Positions 6,146 through 26,419 of a stretch of 34,377 nucleotides of DNA are shown here, piece by piece. Position 1 is the first letter of the stretch, and the number at the start of each line of letters is the position of its first letter. A program made the translations under genes and the position numbers. Under the pieces are notes generated by a model. The model worked only from the letters and a program-made list of their open reading frames with translations. It was not told where the DNA came from and searched no databases. The DNA comes from Patescibacteria group bacterium. GTDB taxonomy: Bacteria > Patescibacteriota > Minisyncoccia > Phycocordibacterales > UBA918. The stretch covers positions 1-34,377 of the forward strand of contig WFTF01000065.1 of assembly GCA_015485575.1 (NCBI GenBank), written 5' to 3'.

Positions 6146-7519
6146 ATGACAGCTTCGCTTAAACGAACAATTGGTGAAGGGGCAGCATGGATTTCTACCG
6201 GAAATGCACTGTTGAAGATTTTAGGTATCTTATACTCCATATTGCTACTTAGCCAGCTGTCCGTATACGAATATGGTGTGGTTGAACTTTTGCTGTCTAT
6301 TCCCCCACTTTTGGGTTTTTTATCTCTGGCAGGTTTAGAAAATGTATTAGTTGCTGACATGAGTAATGCCAAAGGAAAGTGTCAGACAGAGAAGGTACGA
6401 TATATACTCTCTTCATACTTTTCTATACGCTTTTTACTTGCCTGCATAGGAACTTTCATGTTGTTTTTTGCTGCAGATGTGATTGCACGATTCTATAATG
6501 AATCAGTAGTTTTAATGATTCAACTATTGTCAATCACTTTTGTCATAGGATCAGTACGATCTGTTTTTCTAATTGTGTTTAATGTAAATTACGATTTTCA
6601 CTTAGTGGCATTGTATCGTTTTGCAGAAGAACTAATCAGATTTTTAATTATTCTGACAGCTTTTGTTTGGTTCACTGTAAACCCTCTAGCTGTGATAATA
6701 GCTTATGTATTTACAGATATTGTAACGGTGTCCATTTTTATACCAGCTTTTTATGCTTCCAAGAAGAGATTACTAGGTCATGTTTGGTTTTCAGAGGGAT
6801 TTTTACATCCGCTATATATACTTAAAAATCATGGAAAGTGGAGTATTTTTCAGACCTATCTAGGTTTGTTTGGACAAAATATCAGGCCATGGATTATTAA
6901 GACACTTTTAGGTACCCAGGCAGTTGGTATTTTTGCATTGGCAATCGGAATGTATAAACATACCGTTTCTTTATTCCCGTTAGCAAAAATTGTTGCTCCG
7001 ATAATTCCCAGATTTTTAGAAAAGCCACAACAGCTGTATAAATTAGTCAATGGGACGATTAAATATCAGATGTTTATTTTAATTGTGGTGAGTATTTCTG
7101 TATCATTTGTTATGTTATTGCTGGTAACTTACTTATTCCCTGACTACATCAAAGCATACCCGCTGTACTTGGCTATGCTGGTTTCTGTCATCCCAGCAAG
7201 CTTTTCAAGTATTTTTGAAACGGTTTTTCACGGATTACGAGCACAAAAAAACCTTTTTTTCGTTGGGGTGTTGAGACTGGTAGTAATTTTATTGTTACTC
7301 CCAGTTAGTTTGTGGGTATTTGGACTGTATGGTGTTGCTGTAGAATTGCTGATAACAGGAGCTGTTTATACTTATGAACGGTATAAAAAATTGAAACATC
7401 TATTGCCTGGGTATCAATTTAGATTAGCCGACCTGATACATTTTTCGGAACTAGACAAAATGCTTTTACAGAGGATACAAAAAACTGGACAAAAGGTGTT
7501 TGGTGTGGGTAGTAAATAA
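6146..7519 (+). CDS. Polysaccharide flippase (Wzx/MATE-like, MOP superfamily)
   Basis: 457 aa, roughly 12-14 hydrophobic segments; GEGAAWISTGNALLKILGILYSILLL N-terminus typical of Wzx; AAGGAGG upstream. Confidence 0.8.
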   Translation: MTASLKRTIGEGAAWISTGNALLKILGILYSILLLSQLSVYEYGVVELLLSIPPLLGFLSLAGLENVLVADMSNAKGKCQTEKVRYILSSYFSIRFLLACIGTFMLFFAADVIARFYNESVVLMIQLLSITFVIGSVRSVFLIVFNVNYDFHLVALYRFAEELIRFLIILTAFVWFTVNPLAVIIAYVFTDIVTVSIFIPAFYASKKRLLGHVWFSEGFLHPLYILKNHGKWSIFQTYLGLFGQNIRPWIIKTLLGTQAVGIFALAIGMYKHTVSLFPLAKIVAPIIPRFLEKPQQLYKLVNGTIKYQMFILIVVSISVSFVMLLLVTYLFPDYIKAYPLYLAMLVSVIPASFSSIFETVFHGLRAQKNLFFVGVLRLVVILLLLPVSLWVFGLYGVAVELLITGAVYTYERYKKLKHLLPGYQFRLADLIHFSELDKMLLQRIQKTGQKVFGVGSK

Positions 7520-12133: not shown

Positions 12134-13513
12134 ATGAAACACATATTTCTCATAATCTCAAAGGATATTATACGACGAAACATACTCGATACTGCTTTCT
12201 GGGGTACATTTCTTGAAAAATTGCCTCAAGAGGTTAGCATCGTGCTGATTGTCGATCAGGCAAGTGTAGAATCACTCAGAAAGACACATGAAAGCGATAG
12301 AGTAAGAGTTGAAGGATACATCAAGGGAGAACATGTTGGCTTTCAAAAGCTCTTAAACTTTTTGATTCGTACCGGTATTAACTCACATAGTACTCGTACG
12401 TACCGCAACCGCGCGCTTCGTCGAGGTAAAAGTTCATATGCTGGATATGCAGCGAAAGCAATTTTAGCGAACACTCTTGGTAGGTATGCCTGGTATAAGC
12501 ATGTTTTACGATCTTTGTTTACATACACTAAAGCCCCAAAGGCTGTGTATACGTTGTATGAAAAATATACACCGATTGCTGTTTTCGCCCCTTCGTTGAT
12601 AGATAGCGAGTTTGATGCACAGTTTGGGCGGGTAGCAAAACAAAAGAAAGTGCGGTTACTTGGTATGGTGCGTAGTTGGGATAACTTGAATAATCACGGG
12701 GTACTTTCGGTAGTGCCTGATGTATGGTATTTTCAAAATAACTTCTTGCGGGAAATGGCGGAAGAAATACAAGATATTGTTTTATCAAAGATTGAGGTGA
12801 GAAGAGTGGGGTTGCCACACTACGATGAGTATTATGATCCAACTCATATTGTCATTGATCGTGAATCTTTTTTTAACGGTTTAGGTCTTAGTCCGGAGAA
12901 GAAACTGATTTTACTGGGAGGGTCTGATTTTTACTACAGTGAAGATACCCTACCTAAAAAACTTAATGACGCGGTGGAAAAAGGACACATCCAGAAGGAA
13001 GTGCAGATTGTTTTTCGTCCGCATCCAGCACGTTTATTTTCACTTGAAGCATATCAATTAGAAAAGCTGCCTCACGTGATTTTAAATGATGCCTTTAGTG
13101 GAAAAGAGAAGTTTAAAGATACAGATGTATTTATCAATCTGATGTATCATGCGGATATTATTATTAATATCGCATCCACTTTGTCTATTGATGCCGCAGT
13201 GTTTGACACGCCGGCAATTTGTATAAACTTTGATGATGTTGAGAAAAAACTTTCATATTATGAATCGGTACATCGTCTCTATGATCATTTCGACCATTAT
13301 GAACGATTGGTCGCTACGGGTGGTGTGCGGACACCCGATAGTTTAGAACAGCTTATAGAAGATATAAATGCCTATCTTAATAATCCACAGATGGATGCAG
13401 AAGGCAGAAAGAAGATGATAGAAACATTTGTTGAACCGTTTGATGGTCGAGCAAGTGAACGTTTGGCGAACGCGATTGTCAATGATATACGACGTATAGT
13501 GCATGTACAATAA
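12134..13513 (+). CDS. Putative GT-B transferase (CDP-glycerol glycerophosphotransferase / surface carbohydrate biosynthesis-like fold)
   Basis: C-terminal IVFRPHPARL...ADIIINIASTLSIDAAVFDTPAICINFDD resembles GT-B donor-site regions; N-terminal half not recognised. Confidence 0.6.
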   Translation: MKHIFLIISKDIIRRNILDTAFWGTFLEKLPQEVSIVLIVDQASVESLRKTHESDRVRVEGYIKGEHVGFQKLLNFLIRTGINSHSTRTYRNRALRRGKSSYAGYAAKAILANTLGRYAWYKHVLRSLFTYTKAPKAVYTLYEKYTPIAVFAPSLIDSEFDAQFGRVAKQKKVRLLGMVRSWDNLNNHGVLSVVPDVWYFQNNFLREMAEEIQDIVLSKIEVRRVGLPHYDEYYDPTHIVIDRESFFNGLGLSPEKKLILLGGSDFYYSEDTLPKKLNDAVEKGHIQKEVQIVFRPHPARLFSLEAYQLEKLPHVILNDAFSGKEKFKDTDVFINLMYHADIIINIASTLSIDAAVFDTPAICINFDDVEKKLSYYESVHRLYDHFDHYERLVATGGVRTPDSLEQLIEDINAYLNNPQMDAEGRKKMIETFVEPFDGRASERLANAIVNDIRRIVHVQ

Positions 13514-13555
13514 AACCTTTTTGTACATGTGGTAGTTATATCAGGAAAAGAAATT

Positions 13556-14662
13556 ATGACTAAAGAGATGTCTCAAGAAGAAGCGAGAGAACTGTTTACT
13601 GATTTATTCGTCTTAGAACTCGCAAACAATCATTGGGGTAGTGTTGAACGAGGCAAACAAATTATTCGTGAGCACGGCGCTATTGTGAAGAAGCATGGTG
13701 TTAAAGCTGCTATCAAATTGCAATTCCGTGATACAGAAGGATTTGTGAAAAAGGAGTTTGAGGTGGATACGGTTGCCAGAGAGGGAGAAGTGGTGGAACC
13801 ACCAGGATCACCTTCACGCTACGTGAAAAAAACTATTGCAACGAGGTTGCAAAAAGAAGACTTTCGGGTTTTATTTGATGAAATACGAGCACATGGCATG
13901 CTGACCATGGCAACACCCTTTGACGAGAAAACAGTACAGTGGTGTGATGATTTCGATTTGGACTTAGTCAAAATATCAAGCCATGACGCAAGTACGCACA
14001 TTTTGGTTGATCATATTTTAGACTTGAAACGCCCCACAATAGTGTCAAACGGAGGCACGTGTATTGAAGATATAGACACATTGGTGCATCGTTTCAAACA
14101 GGTGAGCGTACCTCTGGCGATTAATCATTGTGTTTCTTTGTACCCCAGTGAGGACCATCATCTGGAACTCAATCAAATAGACTTTTTACGTAAACGATAT
14201 CCAGACCATGTCTTGGGTTTTTCAACACACGAGTACCGAGATTGGTATGCTTCAATGATGATGTCTTATGCAAAAGGGGCCCGAACGTGGGAGCGACATA
14301 TAGATATTGAAGATATGGAGGGAACTCCTGTTTCTAAGTATTGTTCATTACCACATCAAATTGACGAATGGTTTTCTGCATATAAAAAGGCAAAAATTAT
14401 GTGCGGACAGGAGGCATTGCACCCCCGCAAAATTCCCGATGAAGAAAAAAAATACGTACAAAGTGTAGCTCGAGGGATATATGCATTGCGGGACTTAAGA
14501 CCAGGCGATATACTTACTAAAAAAGGCTTGGGCGTTGACTATGAATTAGCAATTCCATTGCAAGAAGGTCAATATTCTGCACATGACCTCAATGAGCCCA
14601 TTACTGTTCAAAATAAGGTACAAAAGGGAAATCCTGTGTTAATAAAAAATAATTATGCTTAG
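13556..14662 (+). CDS. N-acetylneuraminate synthase family protein (NeuB-like, PEP-condensing) with SAF-like C-terminal domain
   Basis: LELANNHWGSVERGKQII...KAAIKLQF; DLVKISSHDA; LAINHCVSLYPS; GFSTHEY; GARTWERHIDIED; ATG at 13556. Confidence 0.88.
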   Translation: MTKEMSQEEARELFTDLFVLELANNHWGSVERGKQIIREHGAIVKKHGVKAAIKLQFRDTEGFVKKEFEVDTVAREGEVVEPPGSPSRYVKKTIATRLQKEDFRVLFDEIRAHGMLTMATPFDEKTVQWCDDFDLDLVKISSHDASTHILVDHILDLKRPTIVSNGGTCIEDIDTLVHRFKQVSVPLAINHCVSLYPSEDHHLELNQIDFLRKRYPDHVLGFSTHEYRDWYASMMMSYAKGARTWERHIDIEDMEGTPVSKYCSLPHQIDEWFSAYKKAKIMCGQEALHPRKIPDEEKKYVQSVARGIYALRDLRPGDILTKKGLGVDYELAIPLQEGQYSAHDLNEPITVQNKVQKGNPVLIKNNYA

Positions 14663-15533
14663 AGACCAGAATATAATACTAAGGACACATTGGGGATTAT
14701 TGATATTTTTTTCCTCGGTGTTAACTGTTGGAGTAATTCAAATACTCAGGAGTATATTAGTGCAATTTGCAGTACCAAATATTATTGTCCTCCTTTTACT
14801 TGTAGTGGGACTAGTGTTGCTGGTATTAGGATTCTTTTTAACGAAACGTGCCCATTATGAAGTGTATCCAACACATGTGCAGGTATTTGGAGCGGTTATA
14901 AATGGTGTCCTTCTGGCGACTGCTTTAGTGATGTTGTTACTGTCAATACTCATTGCGCCTGGGACATCTTTGATGCTTATCGCACTTGCGAGTGCAATTG
15001 AATTTTTGGCAATTCGTCTATCCCAATCAAGACAACTGACTATCGCTCGTGTTTTTGCGCTGTTATTACTTATTGGTTCGATTTACATGACAGCGGTTAC
15101 CTCTCTATCGTTAGCAAAGCTCGTATATATTTTTATAGGCGCACTGGTTTTAAAAGAAGTATTTGGTCGTTATACTAAAACATATTTGCTTTCGTCCTGG
15201 GTGAATAGTATTTGGCACGGAGTAGTTTTTGTCGTGCTAGGTCTCGTTGGCGGATTGATCTGGCCAGTGAACGTAGCCCTGTCCGGGGTGTTGACCTTGC
15301 CGATTTGGGTTGGCTTTGTTGCGTTGAGTATAGGTGTGACGGTTGTGCTTCTACAATTTTTGAAGAGAAAAATCATAATTGCAGTTGGATATTTACAACA
15401 TAAAGTACAGTTATGGACATTATTGCTCGCCCTCGGTGCATATTGGTTTGCCGGTATAGAGGTAGTTCCAATTTTTTTATTGCTCATAGTATTGTATTCT
15501 GTATCAGAAAAAACATTATTCCCTAAAACATAA
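14655..15533 (+). CDS. Polytopic membrane protein of unknown function (about 9-10 predicted TM segments by eye)
   Basis: Almost entirely hydrophobic 292-aa ORF; overlaps neuB-like stop by 8 nt. Confidence 0.75.
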   Translation: MLRDQNIILRTHWGLLIFFSSVLTVGVIQILRSILVQFAVPNIIVLLLLVVGLVLLVLGFFLTKRAHYEVYPTHVQVFGAVINGVLLATALVMLLLSILIAPGTSLMLIALASAIEFLAIRLSQSRQLTIARVFALLLLIGSIYMTAVTSLSLAKLVYIFIGALVLKEVFGRYTKTYLLSSWVNSIWHGVVFVVLGLVGGLIWPVNVALSGVLTLPIWVGFVALSIGVTVVLLQFLKRKIIIAVGYLQHKVQLWTLLLALGAYWFAGIEVVPIFLLLIVLYSVSEKTLFPKT

Positions 15534-15543
15534 TCGGTATCAT

Positions 15544-16275
15544 ATGAAAGAAGAGAAGTATACATGTATTATTGCTGCACGCTATAAGTCTTCTCGATTT
15601 GAGGGGAAACCATTACATCCCATTCATGGAAAACCCATGATTCTTTGGGTTGCTGAACATGCAAATAGAGCAAATCGTGTCAAGGAAGCTATTGTTGCCA
15701 CAGATGATGAACGTATATATACCACAGTTGCTGATGCGGGATTTAAGGCCATGTATACCAGTGAAGATTGTCCGAACGGATCGGCACGAGTTGCAGAAGC
15801 TGTAAACAATTTGGATGATGAATGGGTATTTGAAATGCAGGGAGATCAACCGATGGTGACACCGGACATTATTGACGACTTCATTGAACGATCGGTTGCA
15901 GCAATTAAAAAAACTAACGATATACGGGTCATTATTCCATTCTCAGAAGCAACTCCAGAACATACTGCGTCACCCGATGTGGTAAAAGTCGTGGTAACAA
16001 AATCAAATCGCTTAGCATTTCAAACTCGTTTGCCGATTGAAACAGGGTATAGAACTCTTGGATTATATTTCTGGCATCGTGACGCATTGAACACCTTTGT
16101 AAGTAGTGACCGTTCCCCTGTAGAAATAGCAGAAGATAGCCATCCGATTCGCCTCTATATGAATGATATATATGTACATGGAATTAAGATTCAAGATACA
16201 TCATGGGTTGAAGTAGACCGCCCTCATCAAATTCAAGAGGTGGAGGAAGCAATGGAAAAACGTGGAATTGTGTAA
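15544..16275 (+). CDS. Acylneuraminate/CMP-Kdo-type cytidylyltransferase (KdsB-like)
   Basis: CIIAARYKSSRFEGKPLHPIHGKPMILWV; IVATDDERI; NGSARVAEAV; EMQGDQPMV; TLGLYFWHRDAL match the KdsB layout. Confidence 0.9.
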   Translation: MKEEKYTCIIAARYKSSRFEGKPLHPIHGKPMILWVAEHANRANRVKEAIVATDDERIYTTVADAGFKAMYTSEDCPNGSARVAEAVNNLDDEWVFEMQGDQPMVTPDIIDDFIERSVAAIKKTNDIRVIIPFSEATPEHTASPDVVKVVVTKSNRLAFQTRLPIETGYRTLGLYFWHRDALNTFVSSDRSPVEIAEDSHPIRLYMNDIYVHGIKIQDTSWVEVDRPHQIQEVEEAMEKRGIV

Positions 16276-16383
16276 ATTATACAAGTCAGTAGGAATGAGA
16301 AACAGTTAACCTTCCGATTGCTATCAGGTAAATTTCTAAATGGAGGTAGACTGTTAATATATTCCTATCTAAGGAGGTTGCAC

Positions 16384-17310
16384 ATGCATAAAGATAAAAA
16401 ATATCCTTGGCAAATGTTTGCCGCAGGGGAAGGTGCGTTGAAGACAGTACATTTCTTCTTGTATAAATGGGGGATGATTGGGGTTACCAATGCTGCACCA
16501 CTCGCGTTCTTGTGGACAACTGTGGTTGGTACGATTCAAACCATAGTTGGCATTGTTCGATCGCAGTCATCTGGTAAAACACTGATCATATCTACAAGAC
16601 ATGTTGCGGGGGCAAGTTTGTTTGGGACAGTGGCGACATACATGACAGTATTGCCTGCATGGCTTTCAAGTTATGATGAAATTGGTCCATCGATTTTTCC
16701 GTTTATGACTGCTGTGGGTATCCTTCCGGGGTTGCTCTTTGATTTTCAGGAAGGACAGAGGCGCAATCCGTTTCGTGCAGTACTTGGTATTGGGGTGTTT
16801 TTGGTAGGTGTTGGAGCGTACTTTGACTTCAATTTTTCCTCCTCATTTGTCTCTTGGCAAATGGTGTTAGCGTTTACGTTTGCAGTGGCTGCAGCGATCA
16901 ATGAGCAGATTGCACGACGTACTGGATTAGGAGCAGTTGATCCATTTATAATGCAGTTTTGGGTTGGTATGTCTACGGTCATCACCTGTCTGCTATTCAT
17001 CGGTGGATTATTTGGTCTTGGACTTATGTCACTGCACACTATTTTTTCAATCACTGTATTCTACTGGGGACTCTTTGTCCTTTTTGGTGTCTTGATCGTC
17101 CCCTCCATCTTTTGCAAGGTCACCGCGTATGAAGAAGGGAGGGGAGAGGGCAGTATTGTGTCCAAGAAGGTGGTAATGTTAGGTGTCCTTCTCACCCTTT
17201 CACTATTGGTGGAATGGTTATTCTTCGGGATTGATAGAAACCTTTGGACGACATTGTTGTTCTTGGGTTCTACAGTCCTGAGTTACAAATTGCTTGATGT
17301 GACAAAATAA
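16384..17310 (+). CDS. Polytopic membrane protein, possibly DMT/EamA-like, function unknown
   Basis: About 9-10 hydrophobic segments; ATG at 16384 preceded by strong SD (aaggagg); ORF-track start at 16318 is probably too long. Confidence 0.75.
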   Translation: MHKDKKYPWQMFAAGEGALKTVHFFLYKWGMIGVTNAAPLAFLWTTVVGTIQTIVGIVRSQSSGKTLIISTRHVAGASLFGTVATYMTVLPAWLSSYDEIGPSIFPFMTAVGILPGLLFDFQEGQRRNPFRAVLGIGVFLVGVGAYFDFNFSSSFVSWQMVLAFTFAVAAAINEQIARRTGLGAVDPFIMQFWVGMSTVITCLLFIGGLFGLGLMSLHTIFSITVFYWGLFVLFGVLIVPSIFCKVTAYEEGRGEGSIVSKKVVMLGVLLTLSLLVEWLFFGIDRNLWTTLLFLGSTVLSYKLLDVTK

Positions 17311-17316
17311 CATCAT

Positions 17317-17346
17317 CCCCGCAGGCATGTGTCTGCGGGGGTTTTA
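17317..17346 (+). terminator. Rho-independent terminator ending the main glycan gene run
   Basis: CCCCGCAG-gcatgtgt-CTGCGGGG followed by gttttaa, 6 nt after the 17310 stop. Confidence 0.85.
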
Positions 17347-17372
17347 AGTCACCTTACGTACCTAAAATTTTG

Positions 17373-17378
17373 TATAAT
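17373..17378 (+). promoter_or_regulatory. Candidate -10 element (tgTATAAT) upstream of the HAD gene
   Basis: ttttgTATAATataat just after the terminator; no convincing -35, so possibly extended -10. Confidence 0.4.
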
Positions 17379-17425
17379 ATAATAGTTACTGGTATGAAAT
17401 GAGGTGCATCCTCTGTAAGAGGTGA

Positions 17426-18139
17426 GTGGGGGAAAAGTATAAATATGATGATATGATTGCAGATTTTAATCCAGACACCATAAAGGCAGTCGTATTTGAT
17501 GTTGATGATACGATTACACGAGGTACCATCGCCATAAAAGCAGAGGCATGGGATGTGCTTTTTCCTAATAAGCAGGAATTGGTTCGCGAAGCAAGAGAGT
17601 TGTATGAGTATACGGGAAAAGGTGATCGATATAACATTATCGCGCATATTATTGGAGCACCTCAGGATAATTGTTTTGACAACGAAGCAGTACAACAATG
17701 GGCGCAGCGCTTTGAAGCAACAGTGCAGAAAAACGTGCGAGATAATGGCATACACCAAGACGACCTTCATGCGCTTGAGTATGTACATCAAATATTTCCG
17801 GAAGCAATGTATGTGCTTTCCGTTACCCCTCAAAAATCTGTAGAGGAAAATATACAGTTTTTTGCAACACAGTACCCTAGTATGCAAAATATGTTTGTAC
17901 GTATTATAGGGACTCCTTTGGTGGAGGGTAAGGCAGGTGCACTACGTGATATTGCAAAAGAAAATAACTGTAATCCCGGTACGTTGGTGGTGATTGGGGA
18001 TGGAAATAGTGACTACCAAGGGGCATATGATGCGGGTACTCAGTTTATTGGTGTTAATCCAAATGATCGGGCAGACAAGTGGCCTCAGGAGAATTTTCCT
18101 AAAGTGCCGAATATTTCACATATACTCGAGCTACTATAA
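17426..18139 (+). CDS. HAD-superfamily phosphatase
   Basis: AVVFDVDDTITRG (DxDxT motif), VLSVTPQKS, VVIGDGNSDYQGAYDAG; start uncertain (GTG 17426 or ATG 17453). Confidence 0.85.
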   Translation: MGEKYKYDDMIADFNPDTIKAVVFDVDDTITRGTIAIKAEAWDVLFPNKQELVREARELYEYTGKGDRYNIIAHIIGAPQDNCFDNEAVQQWAQRFEATVQKNVRDNGIHQDDLHALEYVHQIFPEAMYVLSVTPQKSVEENIQFFATQYPSMQNMFVRIIGTPLVEGKAGALRDIAKENNCNPGTLVVIGDGNSDYQGAYDAGTQFIGVNPNDRADKWPQENFPKVPNISHILELL

Positions 18140-24118: not shown

Positions 24119-24149
24119 AACGCACGGTGCGCGAAGCGTGCCGTGCGTT
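24119..24149. repeat. Long hairpin (14-bp stem with two G-U pairs, GAA loop), possible terminator
   Basis: AACGCACGGTGCGC-gaa-GCGTGCCGTGCGTT; no clear T-tract immediately following. Confidence 0.75.
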
Positions 24150-24229
24150 GGTTGACACAAGTGTATTCTTTCATTTTCTTATTTTTTGGGTGCAGGATTT
24201 TTGTCAGAGCATGGTACTATTTTCCTCAT

Positions 24230-26419
24230 ATGAAAGATATATTGAAGACTGTGGTTGTCGGAGGTTTGTTCCTCGTACTTTTCTTGCCACTGTATGTCGA
24301 AAATGATTTTTTCTTCCCATTTATTACCGGTAAAAATTTTGCTTTTAGAATAATTGTTGAGGTCGTGTTTGCAGCATGGGTACTGTTGGCGCTCTTGGAC
24401 GTACGGTATCGTCCAAAGTTTTCTTGGTTGCTGCCCACCTTTGCCGCACTACTTATCGTCATGTTTTTTGCAAATTTGTTTGGTCAGTATCCGACAAAAA
24501 GTTTTTGGAGTAATTTTGAACGCATGGACGGATATGTCACACTGGTGCATGTATTTCTTTTCACCTTTGTGTTGGGAAGTGTACTGACCACCAAGAAACT
24601 CTGGTCGTATTTCCTCCATACTTCCGTGGTTGTGGCGTTGCTTGTGGCACTGTATGGACTTGGTCAGCAGTCGGGCGTGTTTACGGGCGGGAGAGATCGC
24701 GTTGATTCTCGTTTGGGGAATGCCGCATACATGGCAGTGTATATGCTCTTCAATATATTCTTCGTCGCTTTCCTTACGTTGCGTAGCAAGGTAACCGCAC
24801 ACAGGGTGCTGTATGTGGTGGTGGGCGCGATTTTGGCATACACACTGTTGCAAACAGGGACTCGCGGTACCTTTCTGGGGTTTGTCGGCGGGTCGGCAAC
24901 TGCGATTGCATACATAGCACTTTTTGGTAAGAAGGTGCCACAACTGCGCAAATACGCTGTTGGTGGCCTTTTTGCACTAACGGTTTTAGTGTTGGTGTTT
25001 ATGGGTATTCGGGACACTGACTATATTTCTCAAGGACCACTGAAGCGTATTGCAAGTATTGATCTACAGCGTGACCTAGCGGTTCGTACCACCATTTGGG
25101 GTATGGCGTGGGAAGGGGTACAGGAGCGCCCTCTACTTGGTTGGGGACAGGGAAACTTCAACTATGTGTTTAATGAGAAATATAGGCCGGAGCTGTATGC
25201 ACAGGAGCAGTGGTTTGATCGTGTACATAATATTGTATTTGATTGGTTGATTGCGGGAGGATTTTTGGGGCTGATTGCCTATTTCTCCATTATGGCGGCA
25301 CTGTTGTACTACTTACTGATTCAGCCAGTATTTCAGAAAAAAGAATCTCCTTTTTCTGTGTTGGAGCGCGCGGTTCTACTTGGCTTGGTGGTCGGCTATT
25401 TAATGCATAACCTTGTGGTATTTGACAATATCATCAGCTACATCTTTTACGGCACCTTGCTTGCATTGGTACACTCACGTGTTGCTAAGCCGATTCCTGC
25501 AGTTCAAGCATTTCAAATCCAACCACAAATGGTGACGCAGTTTGTGGCACCTATTGTAATTATCATCACCGGCTTTACCGTGTACTTTGTGAATGTACCG
25601 GGCATTAAAGCTGCCGGGGACATGATTGATGCACTGACCGCACCGACGGTCAAGGGGCGACTGCAGGAGTTCCACAATGCTCTGGCGACAAACTCGTTTG
25701 GCAGACAAGAAGTGGTTGAACAGCTGGCACAACAAGCTATGAATATTGCACGCAATCCGAATTTACCTCCTGATGAAAGGCAGCTCATTGTCCAACGTGC
25801 GGAACTTGAACTGTTGAAATTGGCGGATGAGAAGCCCGGAGATGCACGTATTCACAATTTCATCGCTTCCTTCTACCGGTCTATTGGTGCGGTGGACAAA
25901 GCGCGGGAGCAGGCTGCTATAGCAGTGTCTCTGTCACCCAACAAGCCATCTCTGATCATGGAGCAGGGGATTGTAGAGCTGCAGGCAAATCGACCCGAGG
26001 AGGCGTTGTCATACCTGAAAAAGGCATTTGAACTTGAGGAACGAAATACGCAAGCACGTGTATTGTATGCAGCGGTGCTTGCACAAAACGGTGAGTTGGA
26101 AAAGGCAAAAGAGCTTATCGGTGACAAGTATAAAGAGCAGTTTGCAATGAGTGATTATGCATTATCGGTTATAGAAGCAACGAATGATCTGCCTTATCTC
26201 GCTGAGCTCTTTGAGGTTCGTATTGTGCAACAACCGAGCAATGCACAACATCGTGCCAGTCTTGCGTTTATTTACTATCAGCTTGGTGACACACAGCGTG
26301 CAATTGAGGTACTCGAGCAAGCGGCAGAAGATATACCCGCTTTTGCCTCCGTTGCGAACTGCTATGTCGCCAACTTGGAATCAGGAAATGATCCGGCAGA
26401 GTCATGTGAGCAGCAGTAA
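24230..26419 (+). CDS. O-antigen ligase (Wzy_C) family membrane protein with C-terminal TPR repeats
   Basis: Polytopic N-terminus; GTRGTFLGFVGG; RPLLGWGQGNFNYVF...VHNIVFDWLIAGGFLGLIAYFS; TPR-like DARIHNFIASFYRSIGAVDKAREQAAIAVSLSPNKP; ATG at 24230. Confidence 0.9.
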   Translation: MKDILKTVVVGGLFLVLFLPLYVENDFFFPFITGKNFAFRIIVEVVFAAWVLLALLDVRYRPKFSWLLPTFAALLIVMFFANLFGQYPTKSFWSNFERMDGYVTLVHVFLFTFVLGSVLTTKKLWSYFLHTSVVVALLVALYGLGQQSGVFTGGRDRVDSRLGNAAYMAVYMLFNIFFVAFLTLRSKVTAHRVLYVVVGAILAYTLLQTGTRGTFLGFVGGSATAIAYIALFGKKVPQLRKYAVGGLFALTVLVLVFMGIRDTDYISQGPLKRIASIDLQRDLAVRTTIWGMAWEGVQERPLLGWGQGNFNYVFNEKYRPELYAQEQWFDRVHNIVFDWLIAGGFLGLIAYFSIMAALLYYLLIQPVFQKKESPFSVLERAVLLGLVVGYLMHNLVVFDNIISYIFYGTLLALVHSRVAKPIPAVQAFQIQPQMVTQFVAPIVIIITGFTVYFVNVPGIKAAGDMIDALTAPTVKGRLQEFHNALATNSFGRQEVVEQLAQQAMNIARNPNLPPDERQLIVQRAELELLKLADEKPGDARIHNFIASFYRSIGAVDKAREQAAIAVSLSPNKPSLIMEQGIVELQANRPEEALSYLKKAFELEERNTQARVLYAAVLAQNGELEKAKELIGDKYKEQFAMSDYALSVIEATNDLPYLAELFEVRIVQQPSNAQHRASLAFIYYQLGDTQRAIEVLEQAAEDIPAFASVANCYVANLESGNDPAESCEQQ

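Follow-up and report, generated by a model that had tools for sequence, protein, structure and literature searches.

The pathway for Kdn (2-keto-3-deoxy-D-glycero-D-galacto-nononic acid) of Bacteroides thetaiotaomicron and Prymnesium parvum uses a Kdn-9-phosphate (Kdn-9-P) synthase, a phosphatase and a CMP (cytidine monophosphate)-Kdn synthetase; in this phosphorylated route, which is established, mannose 6-phosphate (Man-6-P) gives Kdn-9-P and a separate phosphatase then releases Kdn (PMC6200933). The pathway for Kdo (3-deoxy-D-manno-octulosonic acid) runs through KdsD, KdsA, KdsC and KdsB. The cassette considered here lies in a 34,377-nucleotide stretch of DNA (the window), a single contig from a genome of 800 kb (G000, 91% complete) whose named relatives are Patescibacteria; its carrier is a reduced, probably host-dependent bacterium. 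The genes run on the plus strand in the order NeuB-like synthase, membrane protein TM1, KdsB-like cytidylyltransferase, membrane protein TM2, terminator and HAD phosphatase; all five open reading frames (ORFs) are present, in the order given by an earlier, sequence-only reading. Like the Kdn pathway, the cassette has a sialic-acid-type synthase, a separate phosphatase and a cytidylyltransferase, but its activator is KdsB-type, its synthase is of the SpsE-like branch and carries an insertion of its own, and it has partners resembling drug/metabolite transporters (DMT). With the Kdo pathway it shares KdsB-type CMP activation and a phosphatase step; in contrast, KdsA and KdsD/KpsF were not detected, the synthase is NeuB-type and the KdsB pocket motifs are changed.

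The locus is considered to be a lineage-specific CMP-ulosonate cassette within a surface-glycan cluster, comprising four enzymes and the DMT-like TM1 and TM2, which may move a pathway molecule or hold the synthase at the membrane; a probability of about 0.6 is assigned to this reading.

The NeuB-like and KdsB-like enzymes

A core of TagB-like glycosyltransferase, NeuB-like synthase and KdsB-like cytidylyltransferase is shared by six Patescibacteria lineages: the window, its congener G002 (locus L012), S141_125/G462 (L029 and L140, which carry an identical gene set and are counted as one lineage), Wolfebacteria (L030/L031), G666 (L139) and G532 (L141); a HAD gene accompanies the KdsB-like gene in five of the six. 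In a tree of 84 synthases the cassette synthases form one clade (99/94), and in them alone the conserved RYVKK stretch is preceded by a loop that is 11-14 residues longer and contains a PG...RY motif; their KdsB-like partners likewise form one clade (100/100) on a long stem. The mixed pairing of a NeuB-type synthase with a KdsB-type activator, proposed earlier from the window alone, recurs as one unit in all six lineages with both enzymes in strongly supported clades of their own, and judged from sequence it is stable and specialised. A NUDIX gene and a small gene resembling nucleoside 2-deoxyribosyltransferase lie beside the cassette in G002 (L012:9663-10567) and G532 (L141:8755-9652).

The Pfam matches of the window to NeuB (2e-32), CTP_transf_3 (1.5e-29) and HAD (9e-8) are rated well above chance. 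The synthase scores 112.9 bits against Pfam NeuB (PF03102; gathering score 22.1, E 2.2e-32), 94.9 bits against TIGR03569 (NeuB/NnaB; equivalog cut-off 399.65), and is also far under the NCBIfam PseI equivalog cut-off; its profile scores place it in the NeuB superfamily but not in NeuB/NnaB. Its nearest solved structure is an SpsE-like protein, PDB 3g8r (E 4e-44). The synthase keeps the active-site residues of the NeuB barrel, which align as E30, Q65, T129, F131, K148, Y205, S232, H234, E255 and H257, the last facing His236, the metal histidine of Neisseria meningitidis NeuB. The published active-site list of that enzyme comprises Glu25, Gln55, Thr110, Phe112, Lys129, Tyr186, Ser213, His215 and Glu234 (PMC6795526); the position of NeuB Asn184 is a serine in the synthase, as in PseI. 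Arg314 of the meningococcal SAF domain contacts and places the N-acetyl group of N-acetylmannosamine (ManNAc; PMC6795526), and there is no arginine at its equivalent in the synthase stretch GVDYELAIPLQEGQYSA, in the relatives or in 3g8r. The loss of the SAF 'RP' motif suspected in the sequence-only reading is real, but it is common to the wider SpsE-like group including 3g8r and so is not special to the window locus. That group, in which Bacillus SpsE acts in CMP-legionaminate synthesis (PMC7439481), also has a TagB-domain protein, SpsB, beside the Sps pathway; the window clade differs from it in the unique insertion and the KdsB-like partner.

A scan of named genomes returned 365 synthase relatives, the best 80 of them at 47-64% identity. 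Loci of relatives outside the cassettes mostly carry a thiamine diphosphate (ThDP) enzyme (66 of 82 loci, one of them checked with Pfam) and also RfbH/RfbG/RfbF-like genes, which were assigned by reading their sequences; no homologue of the window KdsB-like protein occurs at any such locus, and these sister clusters were rejected as a context for the window. Loci L032-L108 (e.g. L099:3683-5506 and 9998 onward) hold the sister group of the synthase, with the NeuB-like enzyme in a CDP (cytidine diphosphate)-deoxysugar context, in Proteobacteria, Cyanobacteria, Planctomycetes, Verrucomicrobia and others. Longer SpsE-like synthases with a C-terminal extension that reads as cupin-like are found at L013:8739-10430, L024:9360-11000, L025:9089-10681, L026:9508-11010 and L027:788-2296, some adjoining a cytidylyltransferase, a HAD phosphatase or, at L013, a class II aldolase-like gene. 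At L021:11060-14689, dehydroquinate (DHQ)-synthase-like and short-chain dehydrogenase/reductase (SDR) genes adjoin a NeuB-like synthase, with a ThDP enzyme.

The cytidylyltransferase falls under every KdsB cut-off (score/cut-off 178.3/193, 172.8/255, 155.6/234, 128.4/281 and 112.3/155.2) and is, by these cut-offs, KdsB-like and not KdsB. Both enzymes stand below the NCBIfam NeuB/PseI and KdsB cut-offs and outside the compared sequences of those groups; a placement inside the groups, which would have spoken against the sequence-only reading, was not seen. Against the metal- and CTP (cytidine triphosphate)-contacting residues named for Aquifex KdsB (PMC3149649), the KdsB-like group keeps both Mg-binding aspartates (the D of QGDQP and of VEVDRP) and the CTP contacts (R, S, R and K of the CTP loop, P..GS.R), the proline of this loop being alanine in the window protein only. 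The group departs from KdsB in FE[ML]QGDQP for N.QGDEP, in TG[YW]RTLGLY in place of [RK]HVGIY, where the loop is also shorter, and in a SHPIR-like stretch for LEQLR. The first two regions correspond to described substrate-pocket motifs (VN.QGDEP, FSR and RHIGVYAYR; PMC7717453), at which the window has FEMQGDQP, FQTR and YRTLGLYFW; the two arginines are kept, while the asparagine and histidine are not. NGSARVAEAV, previously singled out as a departure from KdsB, is not diagnostic and was rejected as a specificity signal, because Aquifex KdsB has the similar LPSGSDRVLYVV at the same place.

Neither KdsA nor KpsF/KdsD was detected in the window's own 91%-complete genome, in which the KdsB-like protein is the only CTP_transf_3 protein found. 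The canonical Kdo pathway was rejected on this ground; judging from gene content, the NeuB-like enzyme is very probably the source of the acid. A NeuB-like enzyme replacing KdsA could still yield ordinary Kdo, with the KdsB-like protein a true CMP-Kdo synthetase, an arrangement with which the conserved metal and CTP residues and the KdsC-like logic of a HAD phosphatase agree; this is considered very unlikely, as no KpsF/KdsD was detected for arabinose 5-phosphate supply, the Kdo-site motifs are changed, and KdsB-like proteins of other Patescibacteria (L142, L144) exceed KdsB subfamily cut-offs, in other contexts, where the window protein is under all of them. DHQ-synthase-like and SDR genes adjoin the KdsB-like gene at L142:7372-10133 and L143:9588-12305; at L144:1808-4758 (G468) it lies between a DRE-TIM protein (HMG-CoA-lyase-like by reading) and a HAD phosphatase, which is possibly yet another ulosonate route.

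An ordinary Kdn-type pathway, in which the synthase would use Man-6-P, the HAD enzyme would make Kdn and only the activator would differ, a KdsB-like protein having been recruited as CMP-Kdn synthetase, agrees with the established logic from Man-6-P to CMP-Kdn with a HAD phosphatase (PMC6200933) and with a synthase that has no arginine for an N-acetyl group. The clade-specific loop insertion of the synthase and the pocket motifs peculiar to the KdsB-like group point instead to a specialised substrate, with which Kdn is still compatible; this alternative is regarded as possible but somewhat unlikely. The product of the proposed cassette is probably an unusual, non-N-acylated CMP-ulosonate, based on the residues, the loop insertion and the missing genes.

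The membrane proteins TM1 and TM2

The eukaryotic CMP-sialic acid transporter SLC35A1 belongs to the DMT superfamily. TM1 and TM2 resemble this superfamily (EamA permeases and SLC35A1) in a tentatively predicted layout of about ten helices, and five of nine members of their family match EamA at E<=0.1; they differ from it in having no Pfam match of their own above cut-off and in their linkage to CMP-ulosonate synthesis genes, and their transport function is putative. The helix counts are of low confidence: ten in the TM2 model, and in that of TM1 the same number with a short extra helix at the N terminus. Six other genomes of the order encode TM2 relatives (E<=1e-5), and one of these relatives (L114:1892-2818) reaches 31.8 bits against Pfam EamA, above the gathering score of 28.2. 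TM1 falls into one group with L029:7566-8537 and the C-terminal half of the L141 synthase of G532, in which synthase and membrane domain are fused in a single 636-residue ORF. Searched against all locus ORFs, the TM2-type profile finds the fused L141 domain (E 5e-20) and the L029 protein (3e-7) and nothing outside the family; profile-profile comparison of the TM1 and TM2 types gives a probability of 96.5 (E 9.5e-10). This kinship of TM1, TM2 and L029 is resolved by profiles only, not by direct pairwise BLASTP, and the profile matches suggest that a single EamA/DMT-like family includes both TM1 and TM2 as divergent members. A SLATT_6 match of TM1 (E 0.0019) was set aside as it is under the gathering score, and PDB profile searches with the family gave no match.

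A search of 397 genomes of the order found TM1-type genes in three, all with the cassette, where they fall in the interval between synthase and KdsB-like gene or, once, in the synthase ORF itself, and the slot is the same in L029/L140; the only other matches of the TM1-type profile are two weak ones to TM2-type proteins. Relatives of TM2 lie in NeuB/NeuA clusters in four of six genomes: in G520 the gene directly adjoins NeuA, in G483 a single cupin gene separates the two, in G485 a NeuA-like gene lies 1.4 kb away, and in G055 the relative is split over two contig ends (assumed to be one gene), one contig also carrying NeuB and the other an adjoining NeuA. All nine genomes found to carry the family encode NeuB, including the six with TM2 relatives; NeuB was found in 10 of 59 relatives searched with the window synthase, a rough comparison as the search methods differ. 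Glycan genes cluster anyway, which limits the weight of this co-occurrence. The TM1 slot, the fusion and the TM2 relatives together provide the recurrent linkage to synthase and cytidylyltransferase genes on which the suggested role of the membrane proteins in the sequence-only reading depended.

TM1 and TM2 could also be ordinary DMT/EamA genes without a part in the pathway that drift from one glycan cluster to another, which would leave the enzyme part of the proposal intact. Three of the six cassettes have no such gene, other EamA-like genes also lie near nonulosonic acid (NulO) clusters (L131, L129), and identity to TM2 within the family is low at 18-30%; however, the exclusive synthase-KdsB slot of the TM1 type, once as a fusion, the four NulO-linked TM2 relatives, two of them adjoining a cytidylyltransferase and a third one gene away, and the presence of NeuB in every carrier genome make drift a tenable but rather unlikely account. 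In the cassette reading, TM1 and TM2 are a putative accessory DMT-like transporter. It is quite unlikely that they are a bacterial DMT family transporting CMP-ulosonate or ulosonate, physically coupled to the synthase as the G532 fusion suggests, together with an undescribed Patescibacteria ulosonic acid; if true, the coupled proteins would be a bacterial counterpart to the CMP-sialic acid transporter of the Golgi, permitting an extracytoplasmic or scavenging step. Because of the fusion and of the slot peculiar to TM1, recombinant proteins would allow a direct test of transport.

Proposed pathway and glycan cluster

From the homologies, synteny, clades, fusion and undetected KdsA and KpsF read from the sequence, we infer the substrates, step order, transfer and transport as follows. 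The NeuB/SpsE-like enzyme would join phosphoenolpyruvate (PEP) to an aldose that probably bears a phosphate and lacks the 2-N-acetyl group of ManNAc, giving a 3-deoxy-2-ulosonate or its phosphate; the HAD enzyme would remove the terminal phosphate, the KdsB-like enzyme would activate the acid with CTP, and the upstream TagB-like glycosyltransferase would transfer the ulosonate to a glycan. TM1 and TM2 would most likely move a small molecule of the pathway (precursor sugar, free ulosonate or CMP-ulosonate) or, alternatively, hold the synthase at the membrane; as the cluster has a Wzx-like protein, repeat-unit flipping need not be their task. If this is right, reduced and probably host-dependent bacteria produce an acidic sugar themselves with a mixture of sialic-acid-type and Kdo-type enzymes, and CMP-ulosonate synthesis has a transporter family linked to it; the open-access literature searched contained no paper tying nonulosonic acids to Patescibacteria or the candidate phyla radiation (CPR), or to EamA transporters.

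HAD enzymes are promiscuous, and this is one of several points that weigh against the proposed cassette: the window HAD gene sits behind the terminator, and no HAD gene was seen near the L141 cassette. As for the membrane proteins, the family is absent from the cassettes at L012, L030/L031 and L139 and was not found in searches of the G002 and G666 genomes, so that a membrane protein is not an obligate step; TM1 and TM2 themselves have no Pfam or NCBIfam match above cut-off, EamA included, only their relatives doing so; AlphaFold2 models from three-row alignments (predicted local distance difference test scores of 40 and 53) are too poor to confirm a DMT fold of 5+5 helices; and the synthase-membrane fusion is a single gene from a metagenome-assembled genome.

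The window HAD protein, a candidate ulosonate-phosphate phosphatase, is 50% identical to that beside the KdsB-like gene in the congener G002; it is one gene away from the KdsB-like gene, behind TM2, whereas in four other cassettes the two adjoin. The TagB-like glycosyltransferase is directly upstream of the synthase in the window, lies upstream in all six cassettes and is inferred to be a candidate ulosonate transferase; TagB-domain proteins have been named plausible transferases of pseudaminic/legionaminic acid (Pse/Leg) derivatives in Tannerella forsythia and are transferase candidates in B. subtilis, yet SpsB is dispensable there for Leg transfer (PMC7439481).

The synthase stop overlaps the TM1 start by 8 nt and 10 nt separate TM1 from the KdsB-like gene, which indicates a single tight transcription unit (Table 1). 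The terminator noted earlier after TM2 is confirmed as a hairpin, CCCCGCAG...CTGCGGGG, followed by GTTTT, a short T run (minimum free energy -22.8 kcal/mol, z -4.65), that escaped a simple terminator scanner; given its strength and the T run, the HAD gene probably does not belong to this unit.

Table 1. Features of the cassette and its surroundings in the window
Feature	Position	Strand	Remarks
Wzx-like flippase	6146-7519		glycan cluster
GT-B glycosyltransferase, TagB/CDP-glycerol glycerophosphotransferase-like	12134..13513	+	PF04464 1.5e-5; weak BFO_1060-family match (NCBIfam NF046086, 2e-11)
NeuB/SpsE-like PEP-condensing ulosonate synthase (putative), SAF-like tail	13529..14662	+	GTG start; ATG alternative at 13556
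TM1, predicted ten-helix membrane protein, divergent DMT/EamA-like family	14655..15533	+	
KdsB-like CMP-ulosonate synthetase (cytidylyltransferase, putative)	15544..16275	+	Pfam CTP_transf_3 1.5e-29
TM2, predicted ten-helix membrane protein, DMT/EamA-like	16384..17310	+	
Intrinsic-terminator-like hairpin	17315..17342	+	closes synthase-TM2 transcription unit
HAD phosphatase	17426..18139	+	Pfam HAD_2 8.9e-8; DVDDT and GDGNSD motifs
Secreted-looking protein, 716 aa	21953-24103		CBM96/disaggregatase-like repeat domain
O-antigen-ligase-like protein	24143-26419		tetratricopeptide repeats (TPRs)

The cassette closes a surface-glycan gene cluster that contains GT4/GT2 glycosyltransferases, methyltransferases, a deacetylase, a carbamoyltransferase, a sulfotransferase and FkbM methyltransferases. 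The O-antigen-ligase-like protein is encoded farther along the contig, where the secreted-looking protein adjoins it.

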